From the NCBI RefSeq assembly GCF_017875235.1, contig NZ_JAGGMI010000011.1, positions 1 to 64,000 on the forward strand: a stretch of 64,000 bases of DNA. Reading direction: 5' to 3'. Origin of the DNA: Asticcacaulis solisilvae. Lineage in GTDB: Bacteria; Pseudomonadota; Alphaproteobacteria; Caulobacterales; Caulobacteraceae. The notes under the pieces were generated by a model. That model had not been told where the DNA came from and ran no database searches. It saw nothing but the letters and a program-made list of their open reading frames with translations. Numbering within the stretch: position 1 is the first letter of the stretch; each line of letters starts with the position of its first letter. The translations under genes and the position numbers were made by a program. This document shows, piece by piece, positions 25,715 through 50,819 of this stretch.

Positions 25715-27031
25715 TCAAACAATCCCGCCGCCGAGGTTCGGATTGAACACCCGCGTTTCCGCCTTCAACGCGCGATAGGACGACGCGCGATAACAGGCGA
25801 TCGGATCGATCGCGCCGCCCTTGCGCATCCGCGCCGTGGCCAGTGCCGGACGGACATCGGTCTCAAACGCCAGGCGCAGGCAGTTGTGCGCCATGATGAC
25901 GTCATTGTCCGCCTGATAGCCTTTCAGCGCCTCGCGGTCGACGATCAACGCCTTGACATAGGCGCCCGCAATCGCCCGCGCCGAGTTCAGCAGGCTTTCG
26001 ATCGGGTCGGTGACGTTGTGCGACTGATCCATCATATAGGACGGATTGTAATTGCCCTTGGCGCGGCGCTCGGCCGACACCAGCTCGTTGAAAACAAGAA
26101 ATAGCTGGAACGGATTGATCGAACCCGAGTCGAGATCATCGTCGCCATATTTCGAGTCGTTGAAATGGAAGCCGCCCAGCTTGCCGAACTGGGCCAGCCG
26201 CGCCACGATCATTTCGATGTTCACATTGGGCCCGTGGTGGCCGAGATCGACCAGGCACTGCGCCTTGTCGCCCAGCGCCTGGGCGCACAGGATGCTGGTG
26301 CCCCAGTCCTGGATGACGGTCGAATAGAGCGCCGGCTCGTACATCTTGTGCTCGATGAGCAGCCGCCAGTCGTTCGGCAGTTCGGCATAAACAGCCCGCA
26401 GGGATTCGAGATAGCGTTCCAGCGTATCGGTGAATTCGCACTGGCCGGGGAAGTTCGAACCGTCGCCGATCCACACGGTCAGCGCCTTCGAGCCCAGCTG
26501 GCGGCCAATGTCGATGCATTGCAGGTTATGGTCGATCGCCTGCTGGCGCGTCTGCGGATTGGCGTGGCTGAGCGAACCGAACTTGTAGGAACGCTTCTGG
26601 CCGACCTGGTCCTGAAAGGTGTTGGAATTGATAGCGTCGAAGCCCATGCCGTGCGCTTCGCCGAACTGGCGCAGCGCCACATAGTCCTCGGTCAGGTCCC
26701 ACGGGAAGTGCAGCGAAACGCGCGGCGTCAGGCCGGTCAGTTGCTGGACGACCGAGCAGTCCTCGATCTTCTCGTAGACGTCGTTGGGCTCACCGGCCAG
26801 CGGGAAGCGGGCGAAACGCGTGCCACCCGACGTCATGCCCCAGCTCGGCAGGCCGACTTCCAGCGACATCAGCTTGGAAACGATGTCTTCGATATCGATG
26901 CCGGAACGCGCCAGCCGCACGGCCAGCGCCTCATAGTCCGCCAGGTGCGCGTCCATCAGGCGCGCATTGTCCTTGTCGATGACATCCCGTGGAATACCCA
27001 GCACTGTCTGGTCGATGGCCACATAGCCCAT
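25715..27031 (-). CDS. rhaI: L-rhamnose isomerase (rhizobial/Pseudomonas RhaI type)
   Basis: A 438-residue isomerase converting L-rhamnose to L-rhamnulose, the first step of the phosphorylating pathway. The sequence fits the RhaI branch rather than E. coli RhaA: metal and active-site segments are LLIEHKMYEPALYSTV, CLVDLGHHGPNVNIE and FHFNDSKYGDDDLDSG, with HFPWD earlier. Length is normal for this branch. GGGAG stands upstream of the ATG. It is downstream of rhaD in the same direction (112-base gap) and is followed by a dispersed repeat before the DUF1961 gene. Confidence 0.95.
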   Translation of the reverse strand: MGYVAIDQTVLGIPRDVIDKDNARLMDAHLADYEALAVRLARSGIDIEDIVSKLMSLEVGLPSWGMTSGGTRFARFPLAGEPNDVYEKIEDCSVVQQLTGLTPRVSLHFPWDLTEDYVALRQFGEAHGMGFDAINSNTFQDQVGQKRSYKFGSLSHANPQTRQQAIDHNLQCIDIGRQLGSKALTVWIGDGSNFPGQCEFTDTLERYLESLRAVYAELPNDWRLLIEHKMYEPALYSTVIQDWGTSILCAQALGDKAQCLVDLGHHGPNVNIEMIVARLAQFGKLGGFHFNDSKYGDDDLDSGSINPFQLFLVFNELVSAERRAKGNYNPSYMMDQSHNVTDPIESLLNSARAIAGAYVKALIVDREALKGYQADNDVIMAHNCLRLAFETDVRPALATARMRKGGAIDPIACYRASSYRALKAETRVFNPNLGGGIV

Positions 27032-27143
27032 CTGCCCTGCTCCCTTAACATGCCCTAACTGGTCTCTTATGGACCTTTAAGGTAATACATGGCCACGGCC
27101 GGCGGCTTTAGTCAAATCACCAAAGGTTTAGCGCCGCCCGCGC

Positions 27144-29252
27144 TTACCGCGTAAACGCCGCCGCATTGCCGGCGTCGACATTGAGGATGTTGCCGGTCGA
27201 CTTGGCCGCTCCGGCCCCGGCGAGGAAAACGACCGCCTCGGCCACGTCCTGCGGCAGGACCGAGCGTTTCAGCAGGCTGCGCAGGCGATAGAATTCCTCC
27301 AGCTCGTCATCCTTGAGATTATAGGCGGCGGCGCGCTGCTGGCGCCATTCACCGGTCCAGATCGACGAGCCCTGCAACACGGCATCGGGATTGACGACAT
27401 TAACGCGGATGCCGTGCGGCGCGCCTTCCAGAGCGAGAACCCGGGCCAGTTGCAATTCCGCCGCCTTGGCCGCCGAATAGGCCGCCGTATTGGCCGAGGC
27501 CGCCAGGGCGTTCTTCGACGCCACGAAGACGATAGCGCCCCCCAAAGGCTTCATCAGCCGGAAGGCCTCGCGGCTCGGCAGGAAATAGCCTTCGGCCAGG
27601 ACGCGGAAATTGGCCTGCCACAGATCGAGCGTGGTTTCAGAAATGGCGGCGGCCGAGGCAATGCCGGCATTGGCGACCAGAATGTCGATGCCGCCGAACG
27701 CCAGCACGCAGGCGTCGAACGAAGCGCGCACCGCGGCTTCATCGGCGACATCATTGACGAAGGTGCGGATCAGGTCGGCGCGGTGGCTGCGCATCAGGTC
27801 GGCGCGCACGGTTTCCAGCCGCACTTCGTCGATATCGGTCAGCATGACGCAGCCGCCGCCGGCCAGGATCTGTTCGGCGACCGCGCGACCGATGCCGCCG
27901 GCGGCGCCGGTGATGTAGGCGACCTGGCCAACGAAAGGGCCGGGTTTGGGCTGGCGTTTCAGCTTGGCCTCTTCCAGGGCCCAGTACTCGATGTCGAACA
28001 TCTCCTGTTCGGCCAGCGCCTGGTAGTGACCCAGAGCCACCGCGCCGCGCACGACGTTGGCGGCATTGCGGACATATTCGCCGGCAATGCGCGCAGCGGT
28101 GCGGTCAGGCGCAAAGGCCAGGGCGCAAGTGTCGCGGATCAGCACGACCACCGGATCGGGATCGCGCAAGGCCGGGCTGTCCGGGTGCCGGCAACGCGTA
28201 TGATAGGCGCGGTAACGGTCACGATAGGCTTCGACCGCGCCCTTCAGATAGTCCCCTGCCCCTTCGCCCTGCAGTGGCTCGGGATCGAGGATAAGCGGCC
28301 ACGGCTTGGTGCGCAGGAAGTGGTCCGGACAGGCCGCGCCCTTGGCGGCCTCAAGCAGCAGAGCCGGCGATGACAGGAAGGCCTGGAGGTCGGCCCCGCT
28401 GATGATCTCGCAAACCTTGAGCGTCGAGCGGCTCAGCTCCGTACGCAGCGCGGTGATGGCCTTCAGCACCACGCCCTGCTCCGGAATCGCCGGAGTCACC
28501 GCCTGGGCTCGGGCATTGATGGCGTCCGTCGCGATGCCGATCAGTGCGATACTGGTGTCATAACAGTCGCGCGCCGTATCGCCCCAGCAGAACAGGCCAT
28601 GGCCTTCCAGCACCAGGCCGCGCCAGTGCGGATGGGCCCGGACAGCCTCGCCGATGCGCAGGCCCAGGTCGAAGCCCGGTCGCTGCCAGCCGATCCAGCC
28701 GACCTCGCCCTTGTAGATTTCCTGTGTCAGGGCCTCGGATTCAATGGTCGCCGCCAGGGCCACGACGGAATCGGGGTGAAGATGATCAACGTGCTTATAG
28801 GGAATAAAGGCGTGCAGCGGCGTGTCGATGCTGGCCGGACGCGGATTGAGCCCGAAAGTACAGTGCGGCAGCAGGCCGACCATCTCGTCCTCGTGCGCGC
28901 GGCCACGATAGAGGCGTTCAAGTCCGCGCACGCGGTCGAGATAAAGCGTGGCGAAGCCGTCGGCCTTCATCGAGCCGAGATCGCCGCCCGAGCCCTTGAC
29001 CCACAGGACCTCGACCGTTTCGCCGGTCAGCGGGTCGACGCCCGCGACCTTGGCCGAGGTGTTGCCGCCGCCGAAATTGGTGACCGAAAGATCCGAACCC
29101 AGAAGGTTTGAGCGATAAAGCAGAAGCTCCGCCTCGTCCATGCCTACGGCGACAGCGTCGTCCCAGCGGCTGGCGGGCCTGTTGAAAATCAAGCCGGCGG
29201 ACTTCGGCCCGGATTGGATCCGTCCGATCAACGCGTCCTGCGACAAGCTCAT
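27144..29252 (-). CDS. rhaD: Bifunctional rhamnulose-1-phosphate aldolase / short-chain dehydrogenase
   Basis: A 702-residue fusion. Residues about 20-400 form a class II aldolase domain (GGNTSAKV, and zinc-site HxH-type segments such as KHVDHLHPDSV and LEGHGLFCWG) that splits L-rhamnulose-1-phosphate into DHAP and L-lactaldehyde. Residues about 440-700 are a short-chain dehydrogenase (AYITGAAGGIGRA, YSAAKAAE) that probably oxidises the lactaldehyde or a related product. This two-domain form is typical of alphaproteobacterial and Bacillus RhaD. It is divergent from rhaK with a shared 148-bp control region. No strong ribosome site precedes the ATG. Confidence 0.95.
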   Translation of the reverse strand: MSLSQDALIGRIQSGPKSAGLIFNRPASRWDDAVAVGMDEAELLLYRSNLLGSDLSVTNFGGGNTSAKVAGVDPLTGETVEVLWVKGSGGDLGSMKADGFATLYLDRVRGLERLYRGRAHEDEMVGLLPHCTFGLNPRPASIDTPLHAFIPYKHVDHLHPDSVVALAATIESEALTQEIYKGEVGWIGWQRPGFDLGLRIGEAVRAHPHWRGLVLEGHGLFCWGDTARDCYDTSIALIGIATDAINARAQAVTPAIPEQGVVLKAITALRTELSRSTLKVCEIISGADLQAFLSSPALLLEAAKGAACPDHFLRTKPWPLILDPEPLQGEGAGDYLKGAVEAYRDRYRAYHTRCRHPDSPALRDPDPVVVLIRDTCALAFAPDRTAARIAGEYVRNAANVVRGAVALGHYQALAEQEMFDIEYWALEEAKLKRQPKPGPFVGQVAYITGAAGGIGRAVAEQILAGGGCVMLTDIDEVRLETVRADLMRSHRADLIRTFVNDVADEAAVRASFDACVLAFGGIDILVANAGIASAAAISETTLDLWQANFRVLAEGYFLPSREAFRLMKPLGGAIVFVASKNALAASANTAAYSAAKAAELQLARVLALEGAPHGIRVNVVNPDAVLQGSSIWTGEWRQQRAAAYNLKDDELEEFYRLRSLLKRSVLPQDVAEAVVFLAGAGAAKSTGNILNVDAGNAAAFTR

Positions 29253-29323: not shown

Positions 29324-29354
29324 ATTATCGAAAGCTTTCAATCATTATCGGTCA
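29324..29354. promoter_or_regulatory. Operator candidate between rhaD and rhaK
   Basis: An imperfect palindrome (29324-29345) is centred on GAAAGCTTTC (330-339 of this kilobase), with 9 of 11 positions symmetric. It overlaps AATCATTATCGGTCA (29340-29354), a box also found before rhmD at 46630-46644. The position between divergent rha genes fits a binding site for the DeoR-family repressor encoded after rhaK. Confidence 0.45.
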
Positions 29355-29400
29355 AAAACAAAAGTGCTGATTAATCGCCATGACTCGAAGGGTCGCGGAG

Positions 29401-30804
29401 ATGGGAAACGTAAGGGAAGCCGCGCGAGGCAATTGCGCCGTCTTCGACATCGGTAAAAGCTTCGCCAAGCTGAGCGTCGTCACGCCCGGCGGCGAGATTC
29501 TGGTCGATCGCCGCACCGCGACGCCAGGCTTGCGCAACACCCTTTATGACGCCTTCGACACCGACGCACTGTTCGACTGGCTGCTGACGCAATTGAAAGC
29601 GCTGGGCGACTACAGGATCGACCGCATCATCCCCGTGGCGCACGGCGCCGCCTGCGCCCTGCTCGACGAAAACGAAGCCCTGGTCATGCCGGTCCAGGAC
29701 TATGAGGCCGTCATCCCGGCTGCCATGGTCGCCGCCTATGAGTTGTCGCGGCCGCCATTTTCCGAGACCCTGTCGCCGCGCCTGCCCAAAGGCATGAACC
29801 TGGGGGCGCAGCTCTTCTGGCACAGCCGCCGCGATCCGGCATCCTTTGCGCGCGTCCGCTGGATCCTGCCCTATGCGCAGTACTGGACCTGGCGCCTGAG
29901 CGGGGCCCTGGTCAGCGAAGTCAGTACGCTCGGCTGCCATACCGACCTGTGGTCGCCGGCCACGAACGGATTTTCCTCGCTGGCGCGCAACGAGGGCTGG
30001 GCCGAGCGCTTCCCCGCCATGCGCGGCGCCTGGGAAACCGCCGGAACGCTGCGGCCGGTGATTGCCCGTGCCACCGGCCTGCCGGAAGGCACGCGCGTCT
30101 GCGTCGGCGTTCACGACAGCAATTCGGCGCTCGCCGCGCTCTTGTCCGGCTGGCACAATGACGAGCCGCCGGCCATGCTGTCGACCGGCACCTGGTTTAT
30201 TGCCATGGCGCCCGACGGCCGCCTCGACAACCTCCAGGCTGATCGCGACTGCATGGGTGCCGTCGACGTCTTCGGCCGGCCGGTGCCATGCGCGCGCTTC
30301 ATGGGGGGGCGCGCCTATCAGACGATTACCGGCGGCGCGACCGAGACCGTCGATATCGCCATGCTCGACACGGTCATGCGCGAATCGGCCCTGGCCCTGC
30401 CCAGCTTCCTGGAGGCCGGCGGCCCCTTCCCGCACATGCGCGGGGAAATCCGCGGCCTGCGAGATGACACGCCGCAGGCGCGCGCCGCCTTGGGGGTGCT
30501 CTATCAGGCGCTCCTCAGCATCACCTGCCTCAGCATGATCCAGTCGGGCCGCGCCCTGGTCATCGAAGGCATGGCGGCGGGTAATCCGCTGCTGTGCCGA
30601 CTGATCGCGGCGCTGCACGACGGCCCCGTTGTCTGCACCGCTTCGGTTTCGGCGGTGACTTTGGGCGCGTCGGCCCTGGCCTATCGCGACGAGGTGCCGC
30701 TGCCGCGCCTGCGCCTGCGCCAGGTCCACCCCTTGCTGGCTGGGGAATTCCGCGCCTATCGTGACCTGTGGCTGCAAGCCTGCGGGACGCCCGTCGCCGC
30801 TTGA
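29401..30804 (+). CDS. rhaK: FGGY-family carbohydrate kinase, probable L-rhamnulokinase
   Basis: A 467-residue sugar kinase of the FGGY/ASKHA fold. The N-terminal phosphate loop is AVFDIGKSFAKLSVV, the central GVHDSNSALAALL carries the catalytic Asp, and MLSTGTWFIAM is the second ATP-site motif. Gene context (between rhaD and a DeoR regulator, in a rhamnose locus) makes L-rhamnulose the likely substrate, although L-fuculose or L-xylulose kinases look similar. The ATG at 29401 has GAAGGG 8-9 bases upstream; an ATG at 29380 would add seven residues and lacks a ribosome site. It is the only kinase candidate for the phosphorylating route in the window. Confidence 0.85.
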   Translation: MGNVREAARGNCAVFDIGKSFAKLSVVTPGGEILVDRRTATPGLRNTLYDAFDTDALFDWLLTQLKALGDYRIDRIIPVAHGAACALLDENEALVMPVQDYEAVIPAAMVAAYELSRPPFSETLSPRLPKGMNLGAQLFWHSRRDPASFARVRWILPYAQYWTWRLSGALVSEVSTLGCHTDLWSPATNGFSSLARNEGWAERFPAMRGAWETAGTLRPVIARATGLPEGTRVCVGVHDSNSALAALLSGWHNDEPPAMLSTGTWFIAMAPDGRLDNLQADRDCMGAVDVFGRPVPCARFMGGRAYQTITGGATETVDIAMLDTVMRESALALPSFLEAGGPFPHMRGEIRGLRDDTPQARAALGVLYQALLSITCLSMIQSGRALVIEGMAAGNPLLCRLIAALHDGPVVCTASVSAVTLGASALAYRDEVPLPRLRLRQVHPLLAGEFRAYRDLWLQACGTPVAA

Positions 30805-30895: not shown

Positions 30896-30987
30896 GACAG
30901 CCGGCAAATTCCACATTATAAGATTCGATCAAGAGCAATCACATGAGAGCGTTTTCGTGTGATTTTGACGGACGAACAGGACTATTC

Positions 30988-31806
30988 ATGCATCTTCAGG
31001 ACCGCTGGAAGCGCATCATCGACGAACTGAGCAGCGAGCGCGTGACCTCGGTGGACGAACTGACGGAAAGGCTCGGTGTATCACCGGCCACCATCCGCCG
31101 CGATCTCAATGAACTGCATGAGCTGGGGCACCTGCTGCGTGTGCGTGGCGGCGCCATGCGCTCCGAAGGCAAGCTCTACAGCGGCCGCGAGGAAAAAAGA
31201 TCGGAAGGTTTGCGCGGCCAGTCAAGCTTCTCGGACAGCGTCATCGCCAATGCCGGCGCCAAGCGCGCCATCGCAAAAGCTGCGCTCGACTACATCACGC
31301 CCGGCCTGTCGATGATCATCGACGGCGGCACGACGACCTGGATGATGGCGTCGATGATGAACGACGATTCGTACAATGTGCTGACGACCTCGGTGCCGAT
31401 CCTGCAATGCCTGCTCGAACGCTCGCGCGTGAAGGTGACACTGCCCGGCGGCGAGCTGTTCCGCGACCAGGGCATTATCCTCAATCCTTACGAAGACGGC
31501 ATCCTGCAGCATTTCGCGGCGGCGCGGATGTTCATCGGCTGCCAGGCCCTGACCAAGAACGGCCTGATGCAGACGGATACCCTGCTGGTCCAGTCCGAGC
31601 GCCGGCTGATGGAACGCGCTTCGGAAGTCGTGGTGCTGGCCGATTCGAGCAAGATCGACGCGCCGGCCTCGCTGTCGGTGTGTCCGCTGTCGCAGATAGA
31701 CGTGGTGATCACCGACGACGGGATTTCGGCGGACGCCGTGCGCTGGCTGAAGGCGCATGATATCGACGTGCGGATTGTGAAAGCCGACCAGGCCGCGGCG
31801 GCTTAA
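30988..31806 (+). CDS. DeoR/GlpR family transcriptional regulator (probable rhamnose repressor)
   Basis: A 272-residue repressor. The N-terminal winged helix has VDELTERLGVSPATIRRDLNE with the DeoR recognition helix, followed by the wing GHLLRVRGGA. The C-terminal sugar-phosphate sensor domain includes MIIDGGTTTWMMA and LADSSKI. The ATG at 30988 is chosen because family members start within a few residues of the helix-turn-helix; a longer frame from 30943 begins with an unconserved segment. In rhizobia a DeoR protein represses rha genes in the absence of rhamnose, and the position after rhaK supports the same role here. It ends 2 bp before a dispersed repeat. Confidence 0.9.
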   Translation: MHLQDRWKRIIDELSSERVTSVDELTERLGVSPATIRRDLNELHELGHLLRVRGGAMRSEGKLYSGREEKRSEGLRGQSSFSDSVIANAGAKRAIAKAALDYITPGLSMIIDGGTTTWMMASMMNDDSYNVLTTSVPILQCLLERSRVKVTLPGGELFRDQGIILNPYEDGILQHFAAARMFIGCQALTKNGLMQTDTLLVQSERRLMERASEVVVLADSSKIDAPASLSVCPLSQIDVVITDDGISADAVRWLKAHDIDVRIVKADQAAAA

Positions 31807-31990: not shown

Positions 31991-32305
31991 TCACGCCATA
32001 TAAAACACGGACTTCAGCGGCACGGCGACCGGCGAGTTGTCGGGGTTCGTATCCATGATGTCGGCCATATAGGCCCACCACTTCTTCATCAGCGGCGTGT
32101 TCGGCAAATCATCCATGGTGTGGTTGTCCGTACGCTTCAGCACCCCAAACAAGACCAGCGACTTTTCATCGAGAAAGATCGAATAGTCCGACACGCCGGC
32201 CTCATGCAGCAGGTCCGACAGCTCCGGCCAGATCTCATCGTGGCGGCGCTGATATTCAGCCTCAAAGCCGGGCTTCAGTTGCATGGTAAAGGCGTGGGTC
32301 TGCAT
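31991..32305 (-). CDS. rhaM: L-rhamnose mutarotase
   Basis: A 104-residue enzyme that interconverts alpha- and beta-L-rhamnopyranose, the usual length for RhaM. Recognisable features are the start [23 protein letters not shown], and the C-terminal [20 protein letters not shown] with the two conserved Trp. The ATG at 32305 is preferred: its ribosome site TGAGG overlaps the stop of the upstream esterase gene, and the length then matches the family; a TTG start four codons earlier is possible. It supplies the correct anomer to RhaI or the rhamnose dehydrogenase. It is cotranscribed with the CE12-type esterase (8-base gap). Confidence 0.95.
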
Positions 32306-32313
32306 GGGTAACC

Positions 32314-33450
32314 TCAAGGCAGCGTGATGGTGAAGGTCTTCGGATCCTGCGGCTTATCGGGCGAACAGGCCGGCATATCGACAGCCGCGCCGACCTTCAG
32401 GTCCTTGAACCCGGTCAACTCCTTCGCGACGTAGCAGGCGATGGTGTAGGCGCCGTAGCCGTTATGGTGCGTCTTGTCCGCGCCCTTATTGCCGAAAGCC
32501 AGCAACGACACGTCCGGCCCCAGGCTCTCATACATCCGCGTCGTCTTTTCGGTCAGGTCGATCAGCGGAACATTCAGTTGTCTGGCGACGCCGCGCACGG
32601 CCGCATCATAACCGGCGTGGGTGTTTTCGACCTTGCCGTCCTTGAACGCACGGCGCGCCACCGGCGTCACCAGAACCGGCTGGCCGCCGCGCTGGCGGAC
32701 ATCGGCGACAAACGCGCTTAACCAGGCCGGATAGGCGCCATCCGCGGCGGCATAGGTCCGCGGCCACTGCTTCTTTTCGTCGTTGTGGCCGAACTGGATC
32801 AGCACGACATCGCCCGCGCGCAATTCGCTCAGAAGCTTGTCCCAGCGCAGCGAGGTGACAAAGGACTTCATCGTCTCGCCGCTGCGGGCGTGGTTGGCGA
32901 CCGACAGCTTCGCATCGAGGAAGCGCGGCAACATCTGCCCCCACGAAGCATAGTCACTGCCGTTCTGGTCTGCGACCGTGCTGTCGCCGGCGATCAAAAT
33001 ACGACGCGCGCTAACCGGCGTCAGTTCGAAACCCACCAGTTCGGCGCCGGTCACGCGCAGGATCAACTGATCATCCCAGCTGAAGTCCTTCTCATCGGAG
33101 CCACGCAGGCCGACCTTCGGTCCCTTGGCCACATCCTGCTCGGCCTGGACCAGATAGGGATTGCGGACATTGACGATCACCTTGACGCTTTTCGTCTCAC
33201 CGGCTTTCAGCGCAACGGGCGCAACCATCAGGCGCCGGTCCTCAGCCCAGATGGCCGCCGGCGTTCCGGTACCGCGCAGAGCGACAGTGACTTCATAGTC
33301 ACCGGGCGCGGCAGGCTTGAAGTTGGCGGCCAGGTCGGGACGGGCGGCGACCGGGCTGACAAAGGCCGGATCGGTCACGGTCTGAGCTGAAGCGACGGTC
33401 GCGGTCATTAAGAGTGCCGCCATCGCGACCATAGATTTTTGATCGAACAT
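32314..33450 (-). CDS. Exported rhamnogalacturonan acetylesterase (CE12-like SGNH)
   Basis: A 378-residue esterase expected to remove acetyl groups from galacturonate in RG-I. A signal peptide (1-22, ending ASA-Q) is followed by a beta-sandwich N-terminal domain (about 25-145). The SGNH hydrolase domain then has the nucleophile S157 in [15 protein letters not shown] as block III, and [14 protein letters not shown] with the catalytic His. The ATG at 33450 is chosen because it begins the signal peptide; upstream in-frame codons would extend it through the promoter region. It is divergent from the GH43-GH35 fusion and leads into rhaM. Confidence 0.9.
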
Positions 33451-33570
33451 GATCGATTCAAGGGCCTTTATATGCGCAAACCGCGATATTTGTGATTGAT
33501 GTTGATATTTTTCATTGATATCCCACACTGTCAATGTCAAATTCAATTAACGAAATCAGGTGAGGCAGGG
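33451..33570. promoter_or_regulatory. Divergent promoter region between the esterase and the GH43-GH35 gene
   Basis: This AT-rich 120 bp must hold both divergent promoters. It carries repeated TTGAT words (TGTGATTGATGTTGATAT around 33491-33508 and CATTGATATC soon after) that resemble the TGATTGAT element before the RG-I TonB receptor at 21113-21120. A shared regulator is possible but not shown. Confidence 0.4.
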
Positions 33571-42437: not shown

Positions 42438-42511
42438 CGCGCAATCCGACAAGTGGCTTCCGGTTTTCGGATAAATTGCGCGATAAACTAAAAACCGCGA
42501 TCATGTCGAGC

Positions 42512-43663
42512 CTACCGGGCCCCGGCATGATCGCCGGCCAAAATGGAAGAATCGACTTCGCGCAGGGACTTCGTGCCGGTCAGAACCATGGTCGTGCGCA
42601 TGTCCTTTTCCAGCAGGGCCAGCAGGTTTTCGACGCCCTTCTGGCCGGCTGTCGCCAAAGCATAGACAAAGGCGCGGCCCAGCAGCACGCCGTCGGCGCC
42701 GAGCGCCAGCATGCGCATGACGTCGAGGCCCGTCCGCACACCGCCATCGGCGAAGATGGTCAGGTCGTCCTTGACCGCCTCAGCGATCGCCGGCAACGCC
42801 CGGGCCGACGACAGGGCGCCGTCGAGCTGCCGGCCGCCGTGGTTCGACACGACGATGCCGTTGGCGCCAAAGCTTTTGGCGTCACGCGCGTCTTCGACGT
42901 CCAGGATGCCTTTGATGAGCATCGGCCCTTGCCATTCGTCGCGGATCCATTGCAGGTCCTTCCACGAAATGCCAGGGTCGAAATTGTTGCCCAACCAGCC
43001 GATATAGTCGGCCAGGCCCGTCGCCTTACCCAAATAGGTCGAGATGTTGCCAAGGTCGTGCGGCGTGCCGTGCAGGCCGACATCCCACGCCCATTCCGGG
43101 TGCATGACCGCCTGAATCATGCGGCGAATTTCCGCATTGGGACCGCTCATGCCAGAATGCGGATCGCGGTAACGCGAGCCCGGCACCGGCATGTCGACGG
43201 TAAAGACCAGAGCCCCTGCCCCCAGGTCCTTTGCGCGTTGCAGGACGTCGCGCATGAAGCCGCGATCCTTCAGGACATAGAGCTGAAACCAGATCGGCTT
43301 GTCGCACTGGCTGGCGACTTCTTTCAACGAGCAGACCGACACCGTCGACTGGATGAAGGGGATGTGCTTGCCGGCGGCCGCCCTGGCCGCCTGGACCTCG
43401 CCACGACGGGCATACATGCCGGTGAGACCAACCGGCGCCAGGCAGATCGGCAGGTTGTACTTGAGCCCGAACCATTCCGCGCTGAGATCGAGCGTCTCGG
43501 AGCCCTTCAGCACGCGCTGGCGCAGCGCCACCTGGTTCAGGTCGGCGACATTAGCGCTCAGCGTCTGTTCCGCGCCTGAGCCACCGTCGAGGTAGTGGAA
43601 CAGGAAGGGCGGCAGCTTACGGCGGGCGGCTTCGCGGTAATCGGTCGGGGAGGCAATGATCAT
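42512..43663 (-). CDS. lldD: FMN-dependent L-lactate dehydrogenase (alpha-hydroxy-acid oxidase family)
   Basis: A 383-residue flavoenzyme oxidising L-lactate to pyruvate, normally at the inner membrane with electrons passed to quinone. Motifs are the substrate and FMN segments [26 protein letters not shown] and [13 protein letters not shown] with the catalytic His and Arg, then [23 protein letters not shown] split over the phosphate site. The length fits LldD. It is placed among rhamnose genes, where it can use the L-lactate released by the diketo-hydrolase route (and by oxidation of L-lactaldehyde). It reads in the same direction as rhaT and the rhamnose dehydrogenase upstream. Confidence 0.92.
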
Positions 43664-43796: not shown

Positions 43797-44852
43797 TCAA
43801 CCCGCCAGCATATTGCCATAGCCGATGATGACGGTGGACGCCACCAGGGCCAGGATACCTGTCCACACATAGGCCTTGGTCTTGACCGACGTGCCCTTCC
43901 ATTCCTTGAGCGCAAAGCCCCAGAGTGTCGAGAACAGGATGATCGAGGCCATGTGCAGGGTCCAGGACGAGAAGCCATAGGCGCCCATCTGGCTTTCGCC
44001 CATGGTGTAGAAGAAGAACTGGAAGTACCACAGGGTGCCGCCGAGCGCCGCAAGGCCGTAGTTGAGCAGCAGCGGGATTTTGGTACCTGGCTCCTTGGCT
44101 CGGCCTACCCATTCACCGGCGCTCTTGTTCTTCAGGATCAGGTAGCCCGACCAGACGAGGTTGGTCAGGAAGCCACCGATCAGCACGACGCACAGCACCG
44201 GCAGGCCGGCCCACAGCGGCCCCGTGCCGGCGGCAAGACTCGCGTCCTTGATCGGCGTGCCGCGTTCCAGGCCAAAGGCGAAGAAGGACGACATGACACC
44301 GCAGAAAACGGCGACCATCAGGCCCTTGCTGAGGTGAAACTCGCTCAAGCCTTCCTTTTCGCCCGGCAGTTCGATCTCCTTGCGGTGACCGGCCATGGCG
44401 ACAACGACTATGGCGACGAGCACGACAGCAATGCCGACAAAGGTATAGACGGCGCCGGGCTTGGTCGCGACCTCGCCGAGCGTACCATTGAACAGCGGCG
44501 GCCCAAGCGTACCAATGACGGTCGTCAGGCCCAGCGCGACAGCCATACCGAGGCTCAGGCCCAGGTAGCGCATGGTCAGGCCGAAGGTCAGGCCGCCCAT
44601 GCCCCACAATGCGCCGCAGCCGATACATGCCCACAGCACGTCGGGCGAGGCCGAGCCGATAACGCCCAGCAGGTCCTTGGTCTGGATCGAGGCGAACAGC
44701 CATGGCGCGAACACCCACGAGAAGATGCCGCCGGTCAGCCAGAAGATTTCCCATGACCACAGGCGGATACGCTTATAGGGCACATAGAAGCTGGCCGAGG
44801 CCAGGCCGCCCAGCCAGTGAAAGAATACGCCGATCAACGGATTGGGTGTCAT
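43797..44852 (-). CDS. rhaT: L-rhamnose/H+ symporter
   Basis: A 351-residue inner-membrane protein of the RhaT family with about ten hydrophobic segments. Family features include the opening NPLIGVFFHWLGGLASASFYVPYK, seen in two parts, the segment GCGALWGMGGLTFGLTMRYLG and the C-terminal STVIIGYGNMLAG. It imports L-rhamnose with a proton, and needs the mutarotase RhaM to supply the right anomer. The ATG has a strong GGGGAGG 8 bases upstream. It follows the rhamnose dehydrogenase gene by 42 bases in the same direction and is separated from lldD by a repeat. Confidence 0.95.
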   Translation of the reverse strand: MTPNPLIGVFFHWLGGLASASFYVPYKRIRLWSWEIFWLTGGIFSWVFAPWLFASIQTKDLLGVIGSASPDVLWACIGCGALWGMGGLTFGLTMRYLGLSLGMAVALGLTTVIGTLGPPLFNGTLGEVATKPGAVYTFVGIAVVLVAIVVVAMAGHRKEIELPGEKEGLSEFHLSKGLMVAVFCGVMSSFFAFGLERGTPIKDASLAAGTGPLWAGLPVLCVVLIGGFLTNLVWSGYLILKNKSAGEWVGRAKEPGTKIPLLLNYGLAALGGTLWYFQFFFYTMGESQMGAYGFSSWTLHMASIILFSTLWGFALKEWKGTSVKTKAYVWTGILALVASTVIIGYGNMLAG

Positions 44853-44894: not shown

Positions 44895-45671
44895 TTATTG
44901 CAGATTCACAAACAGGCCGCCGTCGGTCAGCACCGAGGCGCCCGTGACGTAGCCCGACAGGTCCGAAGCCAGAAAGACGACGACCTTGGCGATATCGTCC
45001 GGACGGCCCAGGCGGCCCAGCGGAATGCGCTTTTCCATGTAGGCGCGCTTGGCCGGATCGGAGAGGTCTTCCTTGTTGATGTCGGTGGCGACCGTTCCGG
45101 GCATGACGGAGTTGCAGCGGATGCCGTGGCGGCCCAGGGCAATCGCGGTCGATTGCATCAGCGAGTGCACACCGGCCTTGGTCGGCGTGTAGTGGGTCTG
45201 AAGCTCGCCGCCGACCAGAGCCGAGATCGACGACACGGCGATGATCGAACCACCACGGCCCTGCGCATCCTTGCCTTGTTTGACCATTTGCTGGGCGGCG
45301 GCCTGGCACATGAAGTAGGCGCCGGTATAGTTGACGTTCAGCGTGCGCGAAAACACGTCCTGAGGCATGTCGAGGAAGCTGTGGAACGGGCAGATGCCGG
45401 CGTTCGACACCATGGCGTCGACGCGGCCGAGGCCCGCGACCGCGGCGGCGACAAAGGCCGGCGCCGAGGCCGGATCGGCGACATCGCCGTTGAAGACCAC
45501 GGCCTTGCGGCCCAGCGCTTCGATCTCCTTGACCAGCGACTGCGCCATCTCATCGTCATTGAAGACGTTGAGCGCGACATCGGCGCCATGCTTTGCGCAT
45601 TCGATCGCCGTCGCCCGGCCGATGCCGCGCGACGCCCCCGTGATCAATACCTTCTGTCCTTCGAGCAGCAT
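44895..45671 (-). CDS. Short-chain dehydrogenase, probable L-rhamnose 1-dehydrogenase (LRA1)
   Basis: A 258-residue SDR with the cofactor motif TGASRGIGRAT, the catalytic YTPTK (YxxxK) and the preceding Ser in AVSSISAL. It closely follows the form of L-rhamnose 1-dehydrogenases, which oxidise L-rhamnose to L-rhamnono-1,4-lactone as the first step of the non-phosphorylating pathway. Specificity is inferred mainly from context: it lies between rhaT and an IclR regulator, and the lactonase, dehydratase, 4-dehydrogenase and hydrolase of the pathway are encoded a few kilobases away. GGGAAG stands upstream of the ATG. It probably forms an operon with the IclR gene (18-base gap). Confidence 0.8.
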   Translation of the reverse strand: MLLEGQKVLITGASRGIGRATAIECAKHGADVALNVFNDDEMAQSLVKEIEALGRKAVVFNGDVADPASAPAFVAAAVAGLGRVDAMVSNAGICPFHSFLDMPQDVFSRTLNVNYTGAYFMCQAAAQQMVKQGKDAQGRGGSIIAVSSISALVGGELQTHYTPTKAGVHSLMQSTAIALGRHGIRCNSVMPGTVATDINKEDLSDPAKRAYMEKRIPLGRLGRPDDIAKVVVFLASDLSGYVTGASVLTDGGLFVNLQ

Positions 45672-45689: not shown

Positions 45690-46499
45690 TTAGTCTGTTG
45701 TCTTGGTCCAGCCGAATTCGGCGGAAATCGCGTGTGCGGTATCGAGTACCTGAGTGGCGAGCCCGTTCATGCGGGCGTCGTCCATATATTGTGCTGCGCT
45801 CGATACGCTGATCGAGCCGATGATGGCGCCGGCCGCGTCGCGGATAGGCGCCGCCACGCAGCGGATGCGGTCTTCGTTTTCTTCCAGGTCGAAGGCATAA
45901 CCGGCCTGGCGGTAATGGCGCATACGCTCCATCCAGATGGCTTCGCTGACGCCGTAGTTCGGCCAGTCGGGCGCTTCACGGGCATAGATTTCGCGTAAAC
46001 GCGCGTCTGTTTCATCGAGCAGCAGCGCCTTGCCGAGACCGGTCGAGCGCAGCGGCTGACGCTCACCGATATGCGAGCTGATTTCGATGCGACGGCGGCC
46101 CGTGACCTTATCCAGGTAGAGGGCGCGATCGCCGTCGAGGATGCCGAGGTGAACCGTATCGCCTGACTGCTGGGCCAGGTGAACCAAATGATCGTGCGCC
46201 AGGCGCGGCAGGCTGATCTGGCGCGCCGCCAGATGCCCCAGTTCCAGAAGCTTGGGGCCTAAACTATAGCCAACACGCGGCGTGAAGTTCAAAAAGCGCT
46301 GCTCGACAAGCGTCGCGGCCAGACGGTGCGTGGTCGAGCGCGTCAGGCCGACGGCTTCGGACAACTGCGGCAGGTTCATGCCGGTCTGCGAAACGGCCTT
46401 TATAATGTCGAGGCCGCGCAGCAGGGTCTGCGCCCCGGCAAGGGAACCTTCCCCGGCGGTGCGCCGCAGTGGATGCAGAGCCGATTGTCTAGTTGCCAT
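45690..46499 (-). CDS. IclR family transcriptional regulator
   Basis: A 269-residue IclR protein: a winged-helix domain (about 20-85, LPQLSEAVGLTRSTTHRLAATL) and an effector domain (about 95-260, TVHLGILDGDRALYLDKV and GLGKALL). It is divergent from rhmD and upstream of the rhamnose dehydrogenase, rhaT and lldD genes, so it probably controls the non-phosphorylating pathway in response to rhamnose or an acid intermediate. A GCGAAAT-3-ATTTCGC palindrome 41 bp upstream of its start is a candidate for autoregulation. Ligand unknown. Confidence 0.92.
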   Translation of the reverse strand: MATRQSALHPLRRTAGEGSLAGAQTLLRGLDIIKAVSQTGMNLPQLSEAVGLTRSTTHRLAATLVEQRFLNFTPRVGYSLGPKLLELGHLAARQISLPRLAHDHLVHLAQQSGDTVHLGILDGDRALYLDKVTGRRRIEISSHIGERQPLRSTGLGKALLLDETDARLREIYAREAPDWPNYGVSEAIWMERMRHYRQAGYAFDLEENEDRIRCVAAPIRDAAGAIIGSISVSSAAQYMDDARMNGLATQVLDTAHAISAEFGWTKTTD

Positions 46500-46539
46500 T
46501 ATTCGCGACGAAGGTCCGGAATTTGGGATTAATCTTTGC

Positions 46540-46556: not shown

Positions 46557-46629
46557 ATATCATGAGGCGATGGATTCGCCGTCCAAACAGGCTATATAAT
46601 GAATTTAGATCATTGACAATCAAAATACC

Positions 46630-46644
46630 AATCACTATCGATCA
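46630..46644 (+). promoter_or_regulatory. Shared rha-locus box upstream of rhmD
   Basis: AATCACTATCGATCA matches the box before rhaK (AATCATTATCGGTCA, 29340-29354) at 13 of 15 positions, and resembles the arm of the inverted repeat at 8975-9010. It stands 30 bp before the rhmD start, close to where a promoter or repressor site would be. Confidence 0.4.
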
Positions 46645-46674
46645 CCCGAAATCATAACGACCGTCAGGCCCGCC

Positions 46675-47871
46675 ATGAAAAATCCCAAGATCAGAGAAGT
46701 CAGAGCATCTGTTATCAAAGGAGGCGAAGGCGGCGGTGGCGCCGATTATCACGACCAAGGCGAAGGCCACTGGATCGACAACCACATCGCCACGTCGATG
46801 GGCCGTTATCCCGAATACCGCCAGAGCCGCAAATCGTTCGGCATCAACGTTCTGGGCACACTGGTCGTCGAGATAGAATGCGAAGACGGCACGACCGGTT
46901 TCGCGGTGACGACCGGCGGCGAGCCGGCCGCCTATATGGTCGAAAAGCACTTCGCCCGCTTCCTGGAAGGCCGTTCGCCATTCGAGTACGAGAAGATCTG
47001 GGACCAGATGTACTTCGGCTCGCAATATTATGGCCGCAAGGGCCTGGTGGTGAACGCCATATCGGGAGTCGATCTCGCACTGTGGGACCTGATGGGCAAG
47101 CTGCGTCAGGAACCGGTGCACCAGCTGCTGGGCGGCGCCGTGCGCGACGAACTGCAATTCTACGCCACCGGCGCCCGCCCCGACCTGGCCAAGCAGATGG
47201 GCTTTATCGGCGGCAAGCTGCCGCTCTATCACGGTCCGATCGAAGGCGATGAAGGCCTGAAGAAGAATGTCGAGCTGATTGCCGACATGCGTTCCAAGTG
47301 CGGCGAAGACTTCTGGCTGATGTACGACTGCTGGATGGCGCTCGACGTCAACTACGCCACCAAGCTGGCGCATAAGTGTCATGAGTACGGCCTGAAATGG
47401 ATAGAAGAGGCGATTTCGCCGGACGACTACTGGGGCTATCAGCAACTGAAGAAGAATGTCCCTCCCGGGATGCTGGTCACCACCGGCGAGCACGAAGCCA
47501 CGCGCTGGGGCTTCCGCATGCTGATGGAGATGGACTGCTGCGACATTATTCAGCCCGATGTCGGCTGGTGCGGCGGCGTCACAGAACTGCTGAAGATCTC
47601 GGCCCTGGCGGACTCGCGCGGCGTCATGGTCGTGCCGCACGGCTCATCGGTCTATTCCTACCACTTCGTCATCACGCGTCACAATTCGCCGTTCGCCGAG
47701 TTCCTGATGATGGCGCCGAAGGCCGATCACGTCGCGCCGATGTTCCACCCGCAGCTGCTGGGGGAACCGGTGCCGGAAAATGGCCGCCTGAACGTTAACA
47801 AGCTGGACAAGCCGGGCTTCGGTGTGGAACTGAACCCCGACGTGAAGCTTCACCGCCCGTACACGCACTAA
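46675..47871 (+). CDS. rhmD: L-rhamnonate dehydratase (LRA3)
   Basis: A 398-residue enolase-superfamily enzyme that dehydrates L-rhamnonate to 2-keto-3-deoxy-L-rhamnonate. The N-terminal capping domain has the rhamnonate-dehydratase-like [16 protein letters not shown]. The barrel shows metal-site segments [14 protein letters not shown] and [12 protein letters not shown], then [13 protein letters not shown], and the catalytic His region [13 protein letters not shown]. Length and sequence fit the RhmD family well. It is divergent from the IclR gene and is followed after a repeat by the last two enzymes of the same pathway. The two boxes upstream suggest control by IclR and perhaps a second factor. 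Confidence 0.95.
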
Positions 47872-47924
47872 GGAATTTAAATCACGAACGCTTCGAACAC
47901 TTAAGATCAGGGCAACACACTGCT

Positions 47925-48100: not shown

Positions 48101-48166
48101 GGGATCCCGAAGCTATCCCAATGATCGTGGCGTTCGCGGCGAACCAATCACCAAAGGACCTCCCCC

Positions 48167-49039
48167 ATGAAATTCTGCCGTTTTGGCCCCAAGGGCCAGG
48201 AAAAGCCCGGTGTCGTCGATAGCGACGGCCGCATCCGTGACCTCTCGGGCGTTGTCTCCGACCTGACGCCGGACACGGTGCGTCTGTCTCAACTGGCCAA
48301 GCTGACCGCCACCGACATCAACGCCCTGCCGGTCGTTGAAGGCCAGCCGCGCTACGGCGTGCCGGTCAACAAGATCGGCAAGATCATCGCCGTCGGCCTG
48401 AACTATGCCGACCACGCCGCCGAATCGAACCTGCCAGTTCCGCCCGAGCCGATCTTCTTCACCAAGGCCGTCACCTCGCTGACCGGCCCGAACGACGAAG
48501 TCATGAAGCCGCGCGACGCGACCAAGATGGACTGGGAAGTCGAGCTGGGCCTGATCATCGGCAAGACCTGCCGTTACGTCGAAGAGTCCGAAGCGCTCAG
48601 CCACGTCGCCGGCTACGTCCTGGTCAACGACGTCTCGGAACGCGCCTTTCAAAAAGAACGCGGCACGCAGTGGGTCAAGGGCAAGGGCTGCGACACCTTC
48701 TGCCCCACCGGTCCGTGGCTGGTCACGCCGGACGAAGTCGGCGATGTCCATAACCTCGACATGTTCCTGGATGTCAACGGTCAGCGCATGCAGACCGGCA
48801 ACACCAAAACGCTGATCTTCAACGTCGCCCACTGCATCAGCTACATTTCGCGTTTCATCACCCTGCAACCGGGCGACCTGGTCATCACCGGTACGCCTCC
48901 AGGCGTGGGCGAAGGCAAGAAGCCGAACCCGATCTATCTCAATGCCGGCGACACCATGCACCTCGGCATCGCCAAGTTGGGTGAACAGCGCCAGACTGTG
49001 GTGCCGTTCAGCCTCGAAGGCCAGGAGATTATCGGCTAA
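48167..49039 (+). CDS. FAH-family hydrolase, probable 2,4-diketo-3-deoxy-L-rhamnonate hydrolase (LRA6)
   Basis: A 290-residue fumarylacetoacetate-hydrolase-family protein. Metal-binding acidic residues are in the segments MDWEVELGLIIGK (two Glu) and VNDVSERAFQ, with LNYADHAAE earlier and GDLVITGTPPGVGEG near the end. In the Sphingomonas-type rhamnose pathway LRA6 splits 2,4-diketo-3-deoxy-L-rhamnonate to pyruvate and L-lactate. The next gene starts inside its stop codon (TAATG), tying it to a dehydrogenase that would make exactly that substrate. This context supports the specific assignment over a generic FAH function. Confidence 0.88.
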   Translation: MKFCRFGPKGQEKPGVVDSDGRIRDLSGVVSDLTPDTVRLSQLAKLTATDINALPVVEGQPRYGVPVNKIGKIIAVGLNYADHAAESNLPVPPEPIFFTKAVTSLTGPNDEVMKPRDATKMDWEVELGLIIGKTCRYVEESEALSHVAGYVLVNDVSERAFQKERGTQWVKGKGCDTFCPTGPWLVTPDEVGDVHNLDMFLDVNGQRMQTGNTKTLIFNVAHCISYISRFITLQPGDLVITGTPPGVGEGKKPNPIYLNAGDTMHLGIAKLGEQRQTVVPFSLEGQEIIG

Positions 49040-49785
49040 TGACCTACGCAGGCCGTTTTGATAATCGCTGCGCCGTCATCACCGGCGGCGCAGGTGGACT
49101 GGGCAAGGCTGCGGCCGCGCGCATCATCGCCGAAGGTGGCAAGGTCGTCCTGTGGGACCTGAACCCCGAGGCGCTGGAAGCCGTCGCCAAGGAAGTTGGC
49201 GCTGCCGGCTTCGTGGCGCTGGATGTCTCCAAGCTTGAAGAGGTCTCCGCCGCCGCAAAAAAGTCGGCCGAGATCCTTGGCAAGATCGATATCCTGATCG
49301 CTTCGGCGGGCATCACCGGCGCTACCGTGCCAGCGTGGGAATTCCCGGTCGATTCGTGGCTGAAGGTCATGGATATCAATCTCAACGGCCTGTTCTACTG
49401 CAACCGTGAGATCATCCCCTTCATGCTGGAAAACGGCTACGGCCGGATCGTCAATGTCGCAAGCGTTGCCGGCAAGGAAGGCAATCCGAACGCCTCAGCC
49501 TATTCGGCATCAAAGGCGGGCGTGATCGGTTTCACCAAGAGCCTCGGCAAGGAACTGGCGACCAAGGGCGTGATCGTCAACGCCCTGACGCCAGCGACGT
49601 TCGAGAGCCCGATCCTGGCGCAGCTGCCGCAAAGCCAGGTCGACTATATGCGCTCCAAGATCCCCATGGGCCGCCTGGGTGTTGTCGATGAATCGGCGAC
49701 CATGGTCTGCTTCATGGCGTCGGAAGAGTGCTCGTTCACCACGGCGTCGGTCTTCGACACGTCTGGAGGACGGACGACCTACTAG
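49039..49785 (+). CDS. Short-chain dehydrogenase, probable 2-keto-3-deoxy-L-rhamnonate 4-dehydrogenase (LRA5)
   Basis: A 248-residue SDR with TGGAGGLGKAA as cofactor motif and YSASK as the catalytic motif, and a C-terminus rich in Thr. Its ATG overlaps the stop of the FAH-family gene by one base (TAATG), so translation is coupled. In the non-phosphorylating pathway the 4-dehydrogenase oxidises 2-keto-3-deoxy-L-rhamnonate to the 2,4-diketo acid, which the preceding gene product hydrolyses. General SDR sequence does not prove this substrate; the operon position does most of the work. Confidence 0.85.
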   Translation: MTYAGRFDNRCAVITGGAGGLGKAAAARIIAEGGKVVLWDLNPEALEAVAKEVGAAGFVALDVSKLEEVSAAAKKSAEILGKIDILIASAGITGATVPAWEFPVDSWLKVMDINLNGLFYCNREIIPFMLENGYGRIVNVASVAGKEGNPNASAYSASKAGVIGFTKSLGKELATKGVIVNALTPATFESPILAQLPQSQVDYMRSKIPMGRLGVVDESATMVCFMASEECSFTTASVFDTSGGRTTY

Positions 49786-49790
49786 TAAAC

Positions 49791-49858
49791 TCCCTCTCCC
49801 TGCTTTGGCTGCCGCCGAGGCCGGGGAGAGGGTGGCCCATCGGGCCGGGTGAGGGGCA
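49791..49858. repeat. Dispersed intergenic repeat, type A (half copy)
   Basis: TCCCTCTCCCTGCTTTGGCTG, then GCCGAGGCCGGGGAGAGGGTGG and GGGCCGGGTGAGGGGC. It matches the left half of the copy at 31808-31985. It lies between the 4-dehydrogenase and the lactonase genes and leaves about 70 bp before the latter. Confidence 0.65.
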
Positions 49859-49931
49859 AAAACACGTCACCCAAAACGCCGATCCCCTCTTCCGGCCTTC
49901 CACTTACAGGGAAGAAAAAGAGGACACCCCC

Positions 49932-50819
49932 ATGGCTATCCAGCGCTTTGTCGATGCCCACATCCATCTGTGGCAACTGAACCGCCTGTCCTATGCCTGG
50001 CTGACCCCGCCCTTTTCCGATGATGGCCCGAACGGCAGCGTCGAGCCGATCGCGAAAGACTATGTCCTCTCTGACTACTTCGCCGACGCCGAAGGCTTCA
50101 AGGTGGATAAGGTCGTCCATATCGACGCCGGCGCCGCAGCCTCCGATGCGCTCAATGAAACCCGCTGGCTGCAATCGCTGGCCGATGAGACGGGCTTCCC
50201 CAACGCCATCGTCGCCTTTGCCGCGCTGAATGACGCCGACGTCGAGCCCTTGCTGGCCCAGCACGTCGAAAGCCGCAATGTCCGCGGCATCCGCCACATC
50301 ATCAACTGGCACGAAAACCCCAAGCGCACCTATACGCCACGTAACCTGCTGGAAGATCCGGCGTTCGCGCGCGGCTACGGCCTGCTGTCGCGCTACAAGC
50401 TGTCCTTCGACCTGCAGATCTATCCCGGTCAGATGATCCAGGCCTATGAACTGGCCAAGCAACACCCGGACACGCCGGTCATCCTCAACCATATGGGCAT
50501 GCCGGTCGACGCCGACCTGACGCAGTGGCGTGAGGGCATGACGAAGCTGGCCGAACTGCCACACGCCGCCGTCAAGATCTCGGGCCTCGGCTTTGTCGAT
50601 CGCGGCTGGACGGCGCAATCGATGCGCGGCTTGGTGCTGGAAACCATCGACCGCTTCGGCCCGGAGCGCTGCGCCTTCGCCAGCGACTTCCCGACCGACA
50701 CACTGTTCAACTCCTATTCCTACGGCCTGCGCGCCTACGACGACATCACATCTGGCTTCAGCGCCTCCGAGCGCGACGCCCTGTTCGCTACCACCGCCGA
50801 GCGCATCTACCGGATCTGA
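49932..50819 (+). CDS. Amidohydrolase-family lactonase, probable L-rhamnono-1,4-lactonase (LRA2)
   Basis: A 295-residue amidohydrolase. It begins with the metal-binding VDAHIHLW (HxH), and later has VILNHMGMP and the Asp in FASDFPTD. This branch (COG3618-like) includes sugar lactonases, and L-rhamnonolactonase is the step between rhamnose dehydrogenase and RhmD. The ATG at 49932 is chosen because it is followed at once by the family start and has AGAGG 9-10 bases upstream; an upstream start at 49728 would overlap the preceding gene. It is the last gene of the rhamnose locus, before metE. Confidence 0.85.
   Translation: MAIQRFVDAHIHLWQLNRLSYAWLTPPFSDDGPNGSVEPIAKDYVLSDYFADAEGFKVDKVVHIDAGAAASDALNETRWLQSLADETGFPNAIVAFAALNDADVEPLLAQHVESRNVRGIRHIINWHENPKRTYTPRNLLEDPAFARGYGLLSRYKLSFDLQIYPGQMIQAYELAKQHPDTPVILNHMGMPVDADLTQWREGMTKLAELPHAAVKISGLGFVDRGWTAQSMRGLVLETIDRFGPERCAFASDFPTDTLFNSYSYGLRAYDDITSGFSASERDALFATTAERIYRI

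Follow-up and report, generated by a model that had tools for sequence, protein, structure and literature searches.

Why would one locus encode two complete routes for the breakdown of a single sugar, and would the cell switch between them or run them together? The question is raised by a rhamnogalacturonan I (RG-I) locus of Asticcacaulis solisilvae on a 64,000-nucleotide stretch of contig NZ_JAGGMI010000011.1 (the window). Both a phosphorylating and a non-phosphorylating (diketo-hydrolase) route for L-rhamnose are encoded at positions 25715 to 50819. Two routes for one sugar invite an explanation by switching; the promoters here point to one shared regulon. We think it most likely, with a probability of roughly 0.6, that the two routes operate in parallel within a single RhaR regulon that would be relieved by L-rhamnulose. 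Everything that follows on the routes, their regulation, and a possible inducer branch is deduced from sequence.

Two L-rhamnose routes in one RG-I locus

A preliminary description had reported two complete routes at this locus, and this is borne out: every enzyme that it named was found in its place, and eight rhamnose proteins (RhaI, RhaEW, RhaM, RhaT, Lra1, RhmD, the diketo hydrolase, and LldD) scored over curated NCBIfam cut-offs. The kinase, the lactonase, and the 4-dehydrogenase were assigned less firmly, from domains and neighborhood and, for the 4-dehydrogenase, also from two substrate-linked residues common with 6D9Y. Gene content, and conserved residues where these were checked, were read from the sequence itself; flux through either route is inferred. 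The phosphorylating set is as follows (where two values are given, the second is the cut-off).

25715..27031, minus strand: RhaI, L-rhamnose isomerase (TIGR02629, 661/647 bits; 2HCV, 612 bits)
27144..29252, minus strand: RhaEW, rhamnulose-1-phosphate aldolase/lactaldehyde dehydrogenase (NF006189, 914/634 bits)
29380..30804, plus strand: FGGY_C_2 kinase, probable rhamnulokinase RhaK (Pfam; 41 of 44 conserved columns kept)
30943..31806, plus strand: DeoR-family regulator, probable RhaR (HTH_DeoR and DeoRC, Pfam)
31991..32317, minus strand: RhaM, L-rhamnose mutarotase (TIGR02625, 121/99.6 bits)

The window RhaEW is altered at 15 of 160 outgroup-conserved columns, none of them a His, Asp, or Glu, and its aldolase half keeps the conserved His, Asp, and Glu residues. 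RhaI is no outlier, with 6 of 163 columns altered compared to 3 to 7 across RhaEW genomes. The kinase had no curated rhamnulokinase match in NCBIfam; its relatives adjoin RhaI in most loci outside the genus. Homologues of RhaEW begin 0 to 37 residues (mostly at least 21) further in than the listed open reading frame (ORF), and those of the DeoR protein begin 12 to 15 residues inside theirs. The second set, with the transporter and a lactate dehydrogenase that had been absent from the earlier gene list, is as follows.

42512..43663, minus strand: LldD, flavin mononucleotide (FMN)-dependent L-lactate dehydrogenase (NF033901, 659.5/550)
43797..44852, minus strand: RhaT, L-rhamnose/proton symporter (NF010024, 473/468)
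44895..45671, minus strand: Lra1, L-rhamnose 1-dehydrogenase (NF053807, 439/400; 7B81, 319 bits)
45690..46499, minus strand: IclR-family regulator, full length (HTH_IclR and IclR_C)
46675..47871, plus strand: RhmD, L-rhamnonate dehydratase (NF011968, 751/393; 2OZ3, 745 bits)
48167..49039, plus strand: 2,4-diketo-3-deoxy-L-rhamnonate hydrolase, FAH family (NF053535, 545/500; 449 bits to 8GSR, which we take to be the Sphingomonas hydrolase)
49039..49785, plus strand: short-chain dehydrogenase/reductase (SDR), probable 2-keto-3-deoxy-L-rhamnonate 4-dehydrogenase (generic SDR; best solved relative 6D9Y, 257 bits)
49932..50819, plus strand: amidohydrolase-family lactonase (PF04909, Amidohydro_2, 127 bits)

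For the lactonase, the ORF start at 49728 is, judging from the homologues, too early. Their alignments begin only at residues 49 to 54 of the 343-residue stretch from 49788, and an ATG lies in frame at 49932; the start was therefore moved there. No curated NCBIfam model scored over its cut-off for the 4-dehydrogenase (49039..49785), and its K207 and R245 stand at the proposed carboxylate ligand positions of 6D9Y, given an inferred 8-residue tag offset.

These details bear on the possibility that the second set acts on L-fuconate or another sugar acid. The only curated or solved relatives found for the lactonase are an L-fucono-lactonase model (107 bits against a cut-off of 400) and 4DLF (65 bits), and the diketo intermediate is identical in the rhamnose and fucose routes, according to PMC11199699. 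However, Lra1, RhmD, and the hydrolase score over rhamnose-specific cut-offs, the Lys and Arg of the 4-dehydrogenase match the 6D9Y residues proposed for the rhamnose-type enzyme, and RhaT is encoded in the same row of genes. A role in fuconate breakdown is thus highly improbable, and the original assignment to rhamnose is upheld. A non-phosphorylating L-fucose pathway was likewise rejected: fucose-type dehydratase and 4-dehydrogenase were not encountered, and the rhamnose-type model and residues were found instead.

In the proposed scheme, L-rhamnose would be imported by RhaT. RhaI, RhaK, and RhaEW would convert it to dihydroxyacetone phosphate (DHAP) and L-lactate, and Lra1, the lactonase, RhmD, the 4-dehydrogenase, and the hydrolase would convert it to pyruvate and L-lactate, all activities in this strain being predicted ones. 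LldD would then turn the common L-lactate into pyruvate. An energy contrast had been drawn between the routes, of which one half stands, DHAP versus pyruvate. The other half, lactaldehyde versus lactate, does not, because RhaEW-type enzymes oxidize lactaldehyde to L-lactate (PMC3870299). L-Lactate should thus be the end product of both routes. In some other RhaEW genomes, lldD is a member of RhaR regulons (PMC3870299).

A predicted RhaR operator at the promoters of both sets

From the presence of two regulators it had been suggested that the cell switches: the DeoR protein would control the phosphorylating set and the IclR protein the diketo set, and the route would change with the rhamnose level or the need for energy. 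Both regulators are indeed full length in the window. However, a DeoR-type site lies inside the diketo promoter as well as at the phosphorylating promoters, which speaks against separate control.

The repeat YCRATCA was first spotted when the kinase and rhmD promoters were inspected by eye and was tested afterwards. The tandem site CRATCA(N4)CGRTCA was found upstream of deoR in all 20 genomes read, with 0 to 2 mismatches to CRATCANNNNCGRTCA, and would therefore most simply be the DeoR protein's own operator. The site positions in the window are observed; binding is predicted.

29339..29354, plus strand: predicted DeoR/RhaR operator, RhaEW/kinase intergenic region (exact pattern match; matrix score 16.3)
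30926..30941, plus strand: predicted DeoR/RhaR operator upstream of deoR (1 mismatch)
33440..33455, minus strand: predicted DeoR/RhaR operator, GDSL esterase/GH43-GH35 intergenic region (exact match; top matrix score of the window, 24.5)
46608..46654, plus strand: five phased RATCA half-sites in the divergent iclR-lra1/rhmD promoter, containing an exact tandem site at 46629-46644

Several trends support an operator common to both sets. First, the exact tandem pattern occurs three times in the window (RhaEW/kinase, GDSL/GH43-35, and 30 bp before rhmD) compared to a shuffle mean of 0.07, the RhaEW/kinase and rhmD sites having helped to define the pattern. Second, with a matrix built from the deoR-upstream sites, the seven best scores in the window are all non-coding, though non-coding DNA is 8.5% of the sequence; the seven include one training site. 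Third, the matrix promoter test at rhmD gave p = 0.003 both in the window and in genome G124, which lacks the IclR orthologue and whose lra1/rhmD promoter contains two exact sites. Finally, half-sites are enriched at rhmD. The two genomes with linked complete sets have five (shuffle mean, 1.1), those of the window promoter being spaced by 10 to 12 bp (n = 5; a pattern formulated after it was seen). Eleven relatives without RhaEW have 14 compared to a shuffle mean of 4.2 (0 of 300 resamples reach 14), part of the count in one clade falling inside the short IclR gene. The four genomes with unlinked complete sets have none (1.3), so the two sets are probably regulated apart there, as switching would have it. 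In the relatives without RhaEW, half-sites also exceed the shuffle mean at lra1 (5 versus 1.7) and lldD (4 versus 0.5) and are fewer at GH43-GH35 (2 versus 4.2). The resampling of promoters was a first-order Markov procedure, not an exact dinucleotide shuffle, with 300 resamples for the half-site counts, and the site tests cover genomes other than G133.

Across genomes, the promoter test reached p <= 0.01 for RhaEW in 6/12, GH43-35 in 4/15, GDSL in 6/15, and the PL22-like gene in 6/9. It gave no significant result for Lra1, LldD, RhaT, the lactonase, GH88, the GPH symporter, GH28, the TonB plug gene, DUF1961, or RhaM. Other top matrix places in the window lie before a TonB plug gene (21426), a SASA esterase (24778), and an aldose 1-epimerase (8991). 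The last (8991-9012, gene at 9293-10366) is the second-best DeoR-type site.

Some points weigh against a shared regulon. The promoter test reached p <= 0.01 at rhmD in only 2 of 19 genomes, at the kinase in 5 of 20, and at rhaI in 0 of 19, and the tandem itself is unconvincing at rhmD of the relatives without RhaEW, none of which reaches that level. The exact matches at the kinase and rhmD promoters are partly so by construction, because the pattern was first seen by eye in these two promoters; it also guided the choice of training sites, and AT-rich promoters favor such sites. In addition, the window retains its full-length IclR, and the half-site of the published RhaR motif (TCGAAA) differs from YCRATCA.

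On balance, DeoR probably controls the window diketo set, and since matching sites lie at the diketo and the phosphorylating promoters, both sets are probably induced together; IclR may add a second input at the diketo genes. The DeoR-type RhaR would repress both sets and some RG-I genes from the tandem YCRATCA sites. In Chloroflexus, a DeoR-type RhaR binds a site of four tandem repeats, from which L-rhamnulose, but not L-rhamnose, releases it (PMC3870299). By homology, the window RhaR may respond in the same way, and RhaI would then be the source of the inducer. Switching is weakened by the site in the diketo promoter and by the loss of the IclR orthologue from G124, and we consider it unlikely; the shared regulon is better supported by the promoters.

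Co-occurrence of the two sets is fairly rare

Surveys covered a family sample (299 genomes), a class sample (289 genomes), and the genus Asticcacaulis (25 genomes, including the window). The non-phosphorylating route was surveyed in its hydrolase version, as distinct from the aldolase version. Thresholds were E <= 1e-80 (family) and 1e-100 (class) for the hydrolase, 1e-80 for RhaI, and 1e-120 for RhaEW; "over cut-off" refers to the NCBIfam curated cut-off. The distribution, as counted, bears out the view that two complete routes in one locus are uncommon elsewhere. In the family sample, the hydrolase was found in 109 genomes (80 over cut-off), RhaI in 34, and RhaEW in 31 at E <= 1e-120 (21 over cut-off). 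Within the genus, the numbers were 25 (22 over cut-off), 21, and 8, respectively. Outside the genus, 13 of 274 family genomes have RhaI, all with an over-cut-off RhaEW; the hydrolase was found at E <= 1e-80 in 4 of the 13, over cut-off in 1, and within 600 kb on the RhaI contig in none. Among class genomes, 12 have RhaI and 5 an over-cut-off hydrolase, and the window alone has both. The hydrolase was also searched for in 50 of 67 named RhaI genomes outside the genus: none has it over cut-off, and in 17 a weaker relative was found, scoring at most 495 bits against the cut-off of 500. Fisher values of 0.0002 and 0.00007 describe the sample only, because related genomes are not independent.

Complete sets within 25 kb on one contig were found in 2 of the 25 genus members, the window and G124. 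The sets lie on different contigs in G052, G080, G085, G119, and G129; in G149, the phosphorylating genes follow the window's order, and the fragmented assembly does not allow linkage to be judged. Among the matches listed, the open-licence literature contained no report of both rhamnose routes in one locus, and among those listed for Asticcacaulis and rhamnose, none was about rhamnose catabolism by title or abstract start. The two-route observation is correct and fairly rare.

Two other loci may be mentioned. On contig 25 of G511, RhaI lies 26 kb from a below-cut-off hydrolase relative (428 bits), possibly a second kind of linked locus. In a Marinagarivorans metagenome-assembled genome (MAG), an SDR (43%) and an RhmD-like gene (47%) lie near RhaI, RhaEW, and the kinase (L102:18125-20470).

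Relatives that keep half of the phosphorylating route

Within the genus, RhaEW is missing from 13 of the 21 genomes that have RhaI, among them G094 and G068, both assembled as a single contig. Of 67 RhaI loci outside the genus, 66 have RhaEW next to RhaI in the stretch that was fetched, one of them being truncated at a contig end; the sole locus without it nearby is L112, from a Dehalococcoidia MAG. In the stretches read, the kinase and DeoR are kept in all 13 RhaEW-less genomes and RhaM in 12, and the hydrolase lies about 13 to 38 kb from RhaI on the same contig in 11, the other two being on split contigs. A search of the 13 loci for RhaEW remnants gave no more than one 22-residue match (E 0.66). 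The ratio of nonsynonymous to synonymous substitution rates (dN/dS) in RhaEW-less clades C, D, and E was 0.105, 0.027, and 0.027 for RhaI and 0.024, 0.051, and 0.070 for the kinase, which indicates that both are under purifying selection. One conserved column in RhaI (Pro to Ala), and none in the kinase, is altered throughout the RhaEW-less genomes yet intact in every other genome.

One explanation is that in this genus carbon flows through the diketo route, that RhaI and the kinase are kept mainly to make the DeoR inducer, and that the window RhaEW is on its way out. This is compatible with parallel routes in one regulon, and an inducer role could explain why RhaI is kept where the pathway seems incomplete. 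The retention of RhaI, kinase, and DeoR in the 13 genomes, the low dN/dS in three RhaEW-less groups, the L-rhamnulose effector of one DeoR-type RhaR, and the half-site excess at rhmD all fit. RhaEW itself is altered at 15 (window) and 17 (G124) of 160 columns compared to 2 to 7 in the unlinked G119, G052, G080, G085, and G129 (the G149 copy is cut); this agrees with, without proving, a weaker requirement for RhaEW in genomes with linked sets. On the other side, no RhaEW-less genome reaches p <= 0.01 for the tandem at rhmD, RhaI is slightly more altered in these genomes (7 to 11 of 163 columns versus 3 to 7), and the kinase is left unexplained. In Rhizobium leguminosarum, rhaK is dispensable for full induction, and a strain without RhaD and RhaI does not grow on rhamnose plus glycerol, a rhaK-dependent effect ascribed to phosphorylated intermediates; Sinorhizobium meliloti rhaDI mutants grow (PMC9025865). 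The retained kinase would make sense either if the inducer were phosphorylated or if there were an unknown aldolase. We hold the inducer branch as a tentative proposal.

Its main rival is an undiscovered aldolase of another family, encoded elsewhere, that would complete the phosphorylating route in these relatives. Purifying selection on the isomerase and the kinase speaks for it, as does the harm expected from a build-up of phosphosugar. Against it, no aldolase emerged among the families and genes searched, other families lying outside the search. DeoC/LacD proteins (PF01791) were found in 0 of 20 genomes, and a PF01116 aldolase occurs once in each of the 20 with or without RhaEW (that of G153 in two fragments). 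PF00596 proteins are absent from the single-contig G094 and adducin-like or weakly AraD-like in other genomes; as candidates for a hidden RhaD, four representatives were scanned and rejected, the best curated fit being NF005451 or weakly AraD-like and none near the FucA cut-off. No replacement aldolase was found among ten genes near RhaEW-less loci scanned with Pfam: an RGL11 lyase, a MarR protein, an SRP54-type GTPase, a radical-SAM methylthiotransferase, an RpiB-like protein, KduI, two SDRs (KduD by NCBIfam), an AAA/DUF4143 protein, and one without a match. Such an aldolase is a serious possibility at somewhat less than even odds.

The second regulator has also changed in these relatives. 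A full IclR orthologue (at least 67% identity) is present in 7 of 8 RhaEW genomes and 0 of 13 RhaEW-less ones, 12 of which carry a 54 to 57% relative elsewhere in the genome. Beside Lra1, all 12 RhaEW-less genomes read have an ORF of 91 to 166 amino acids that aligns to the IclR HTH part only (three checked with Pfam), conserved with dN/dS of 0.07 to 0.13. Stand-alone HTH proteins without an effector domain are seen beside Lra1/RhmD at L006:10712-11212, L012:12779-13168, and L009:9631-9909. By eye, the rhmD promoters of genomes with the HTH-only protein contain a palindrome like TGCTCA(N4)TGAGCA. In G094, RhmD is present as two overlapping ORFs (159 and 259 amino acids; L007:6700-7951), either a real break or a sequencing error, and was excluded from the RhmD tree and dN/dS ratio. 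The clade B dN/dS rows for SDR2 and Lra1 were unused because a paralogue was mixed in, and the diketo dataset comprises genes from genomes other than G104 and DNA from genomes other than G129 and G149.

For Asticcacaulis as a whole, it is conceivable, though doubtful, that the diketo route took over the carbon flow, that RhaI and the kinase without aldolase became a dedicated inducer branch for DeoR, and that the diketo IclR lost its sensor domain. The window would then be a stage with both routes complete and the operator already common.

A probable mosaic locus

In a midpoint-rooted fructose-bisphosphate aldolase (FBA) tree covering 10 of the 13 RhaEW-less genomes, these 10 and the RhaEW-bearing G080 form one fully supported clade and the window falls in the other, and in the RhaI tree the loss of RhaEW requires at least two changes. 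The diketo gene trees disagree. The window 4-dehydrogenase and RhmD group with RhaEW-less genomes (support, 96 and 98), its hydrolase with G124, G119, G052, and G085 (98), and its Lra1 with G052, G085, G124, G014, and G114 (100). Parts of the locus were therefore probably exchanged between lineages, leaving a mosaic.

Surroundings of the locus

The RG-I neighbors are a PcRGLX-type lyase, two arabinofuranosidases, a PL22-like protein, SASA and GDSL esterases, a TonB plug protein, and the following glycoside hydrolases.

33496..37575, plus strand: GH43-GH35 protein of the RG-I set (Pfam)
37594..38784, plus strand: GH88-family hydrolase (Pfam, 334 bits)
41031..42452, minus strand: GH28 rhamnogalacturonidase (NF049898, 582/500)

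MetE at 50960 marks the end of the locus. The GH43 and GH35 parts are joined in a single 1359-amino-acid ORF (33496-37575), with relatives of similar length in other Asticcacaulis loci. A DUF1961 gene (window 24797-25549) is present in the loci of 19 of 21 genus RhaI genomes, often adjoining RhaI. Further upstream, a TonB-dependent receptor is followed by a tryptophan-halogenase-family gene (window 1814-6475).

Comparison with known systems and implications

The rhizobial rha locus (RhaI, RhaD = RhaEW, RhaK, RhaU, and a DeoR-type RhaR) has the same isomerase, FGGY kinase, aldolase-dehydrogenase, mutarotase, and DeoR regulator as the window. In contrast, the window set lies within an RG-I locus and is linked to a diketo set, and it has the RhaT symporter where an ABC transporter is described for alphaproteobacteria (PMC3870299). 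The diketo-hydrolase route of Sphingomonas sp. SKA58 (LRA1, LRA5, and LRA6) uses a dehydrogenase, a dehydratase, a 4-dehydrogenase, and a hydrolase of the same families; the window set differs in being linked to a complete phosphorylating set and in having a DeoR-type site in front. The Chloroflexus aurantiacus RhaR regulon, as given in PMC3870299, shares with the window a DeoR-family regulator and tandem half-sites before rhamnose genes, and the five half-sites of the window resemble its four-fold tandem. The half-site is YCRATCA and not TCGAAA, however, and both the diketo set and RG-I genes are among the predicted targets here.

Of most interest are the relatives, in which half a pathway is kept under selection. 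The genus offers a natural series: sets that are unlinked with their own regulators, sets that are linked and complete, and sets that are linked without the aldolase and the IclR sensor domain. This series bears on whether catabolic enzymes may be kept only as makers of a signal or whether an L-rhamnulose-1-phosphate aldolase is still to be found, and either outcome would be new.

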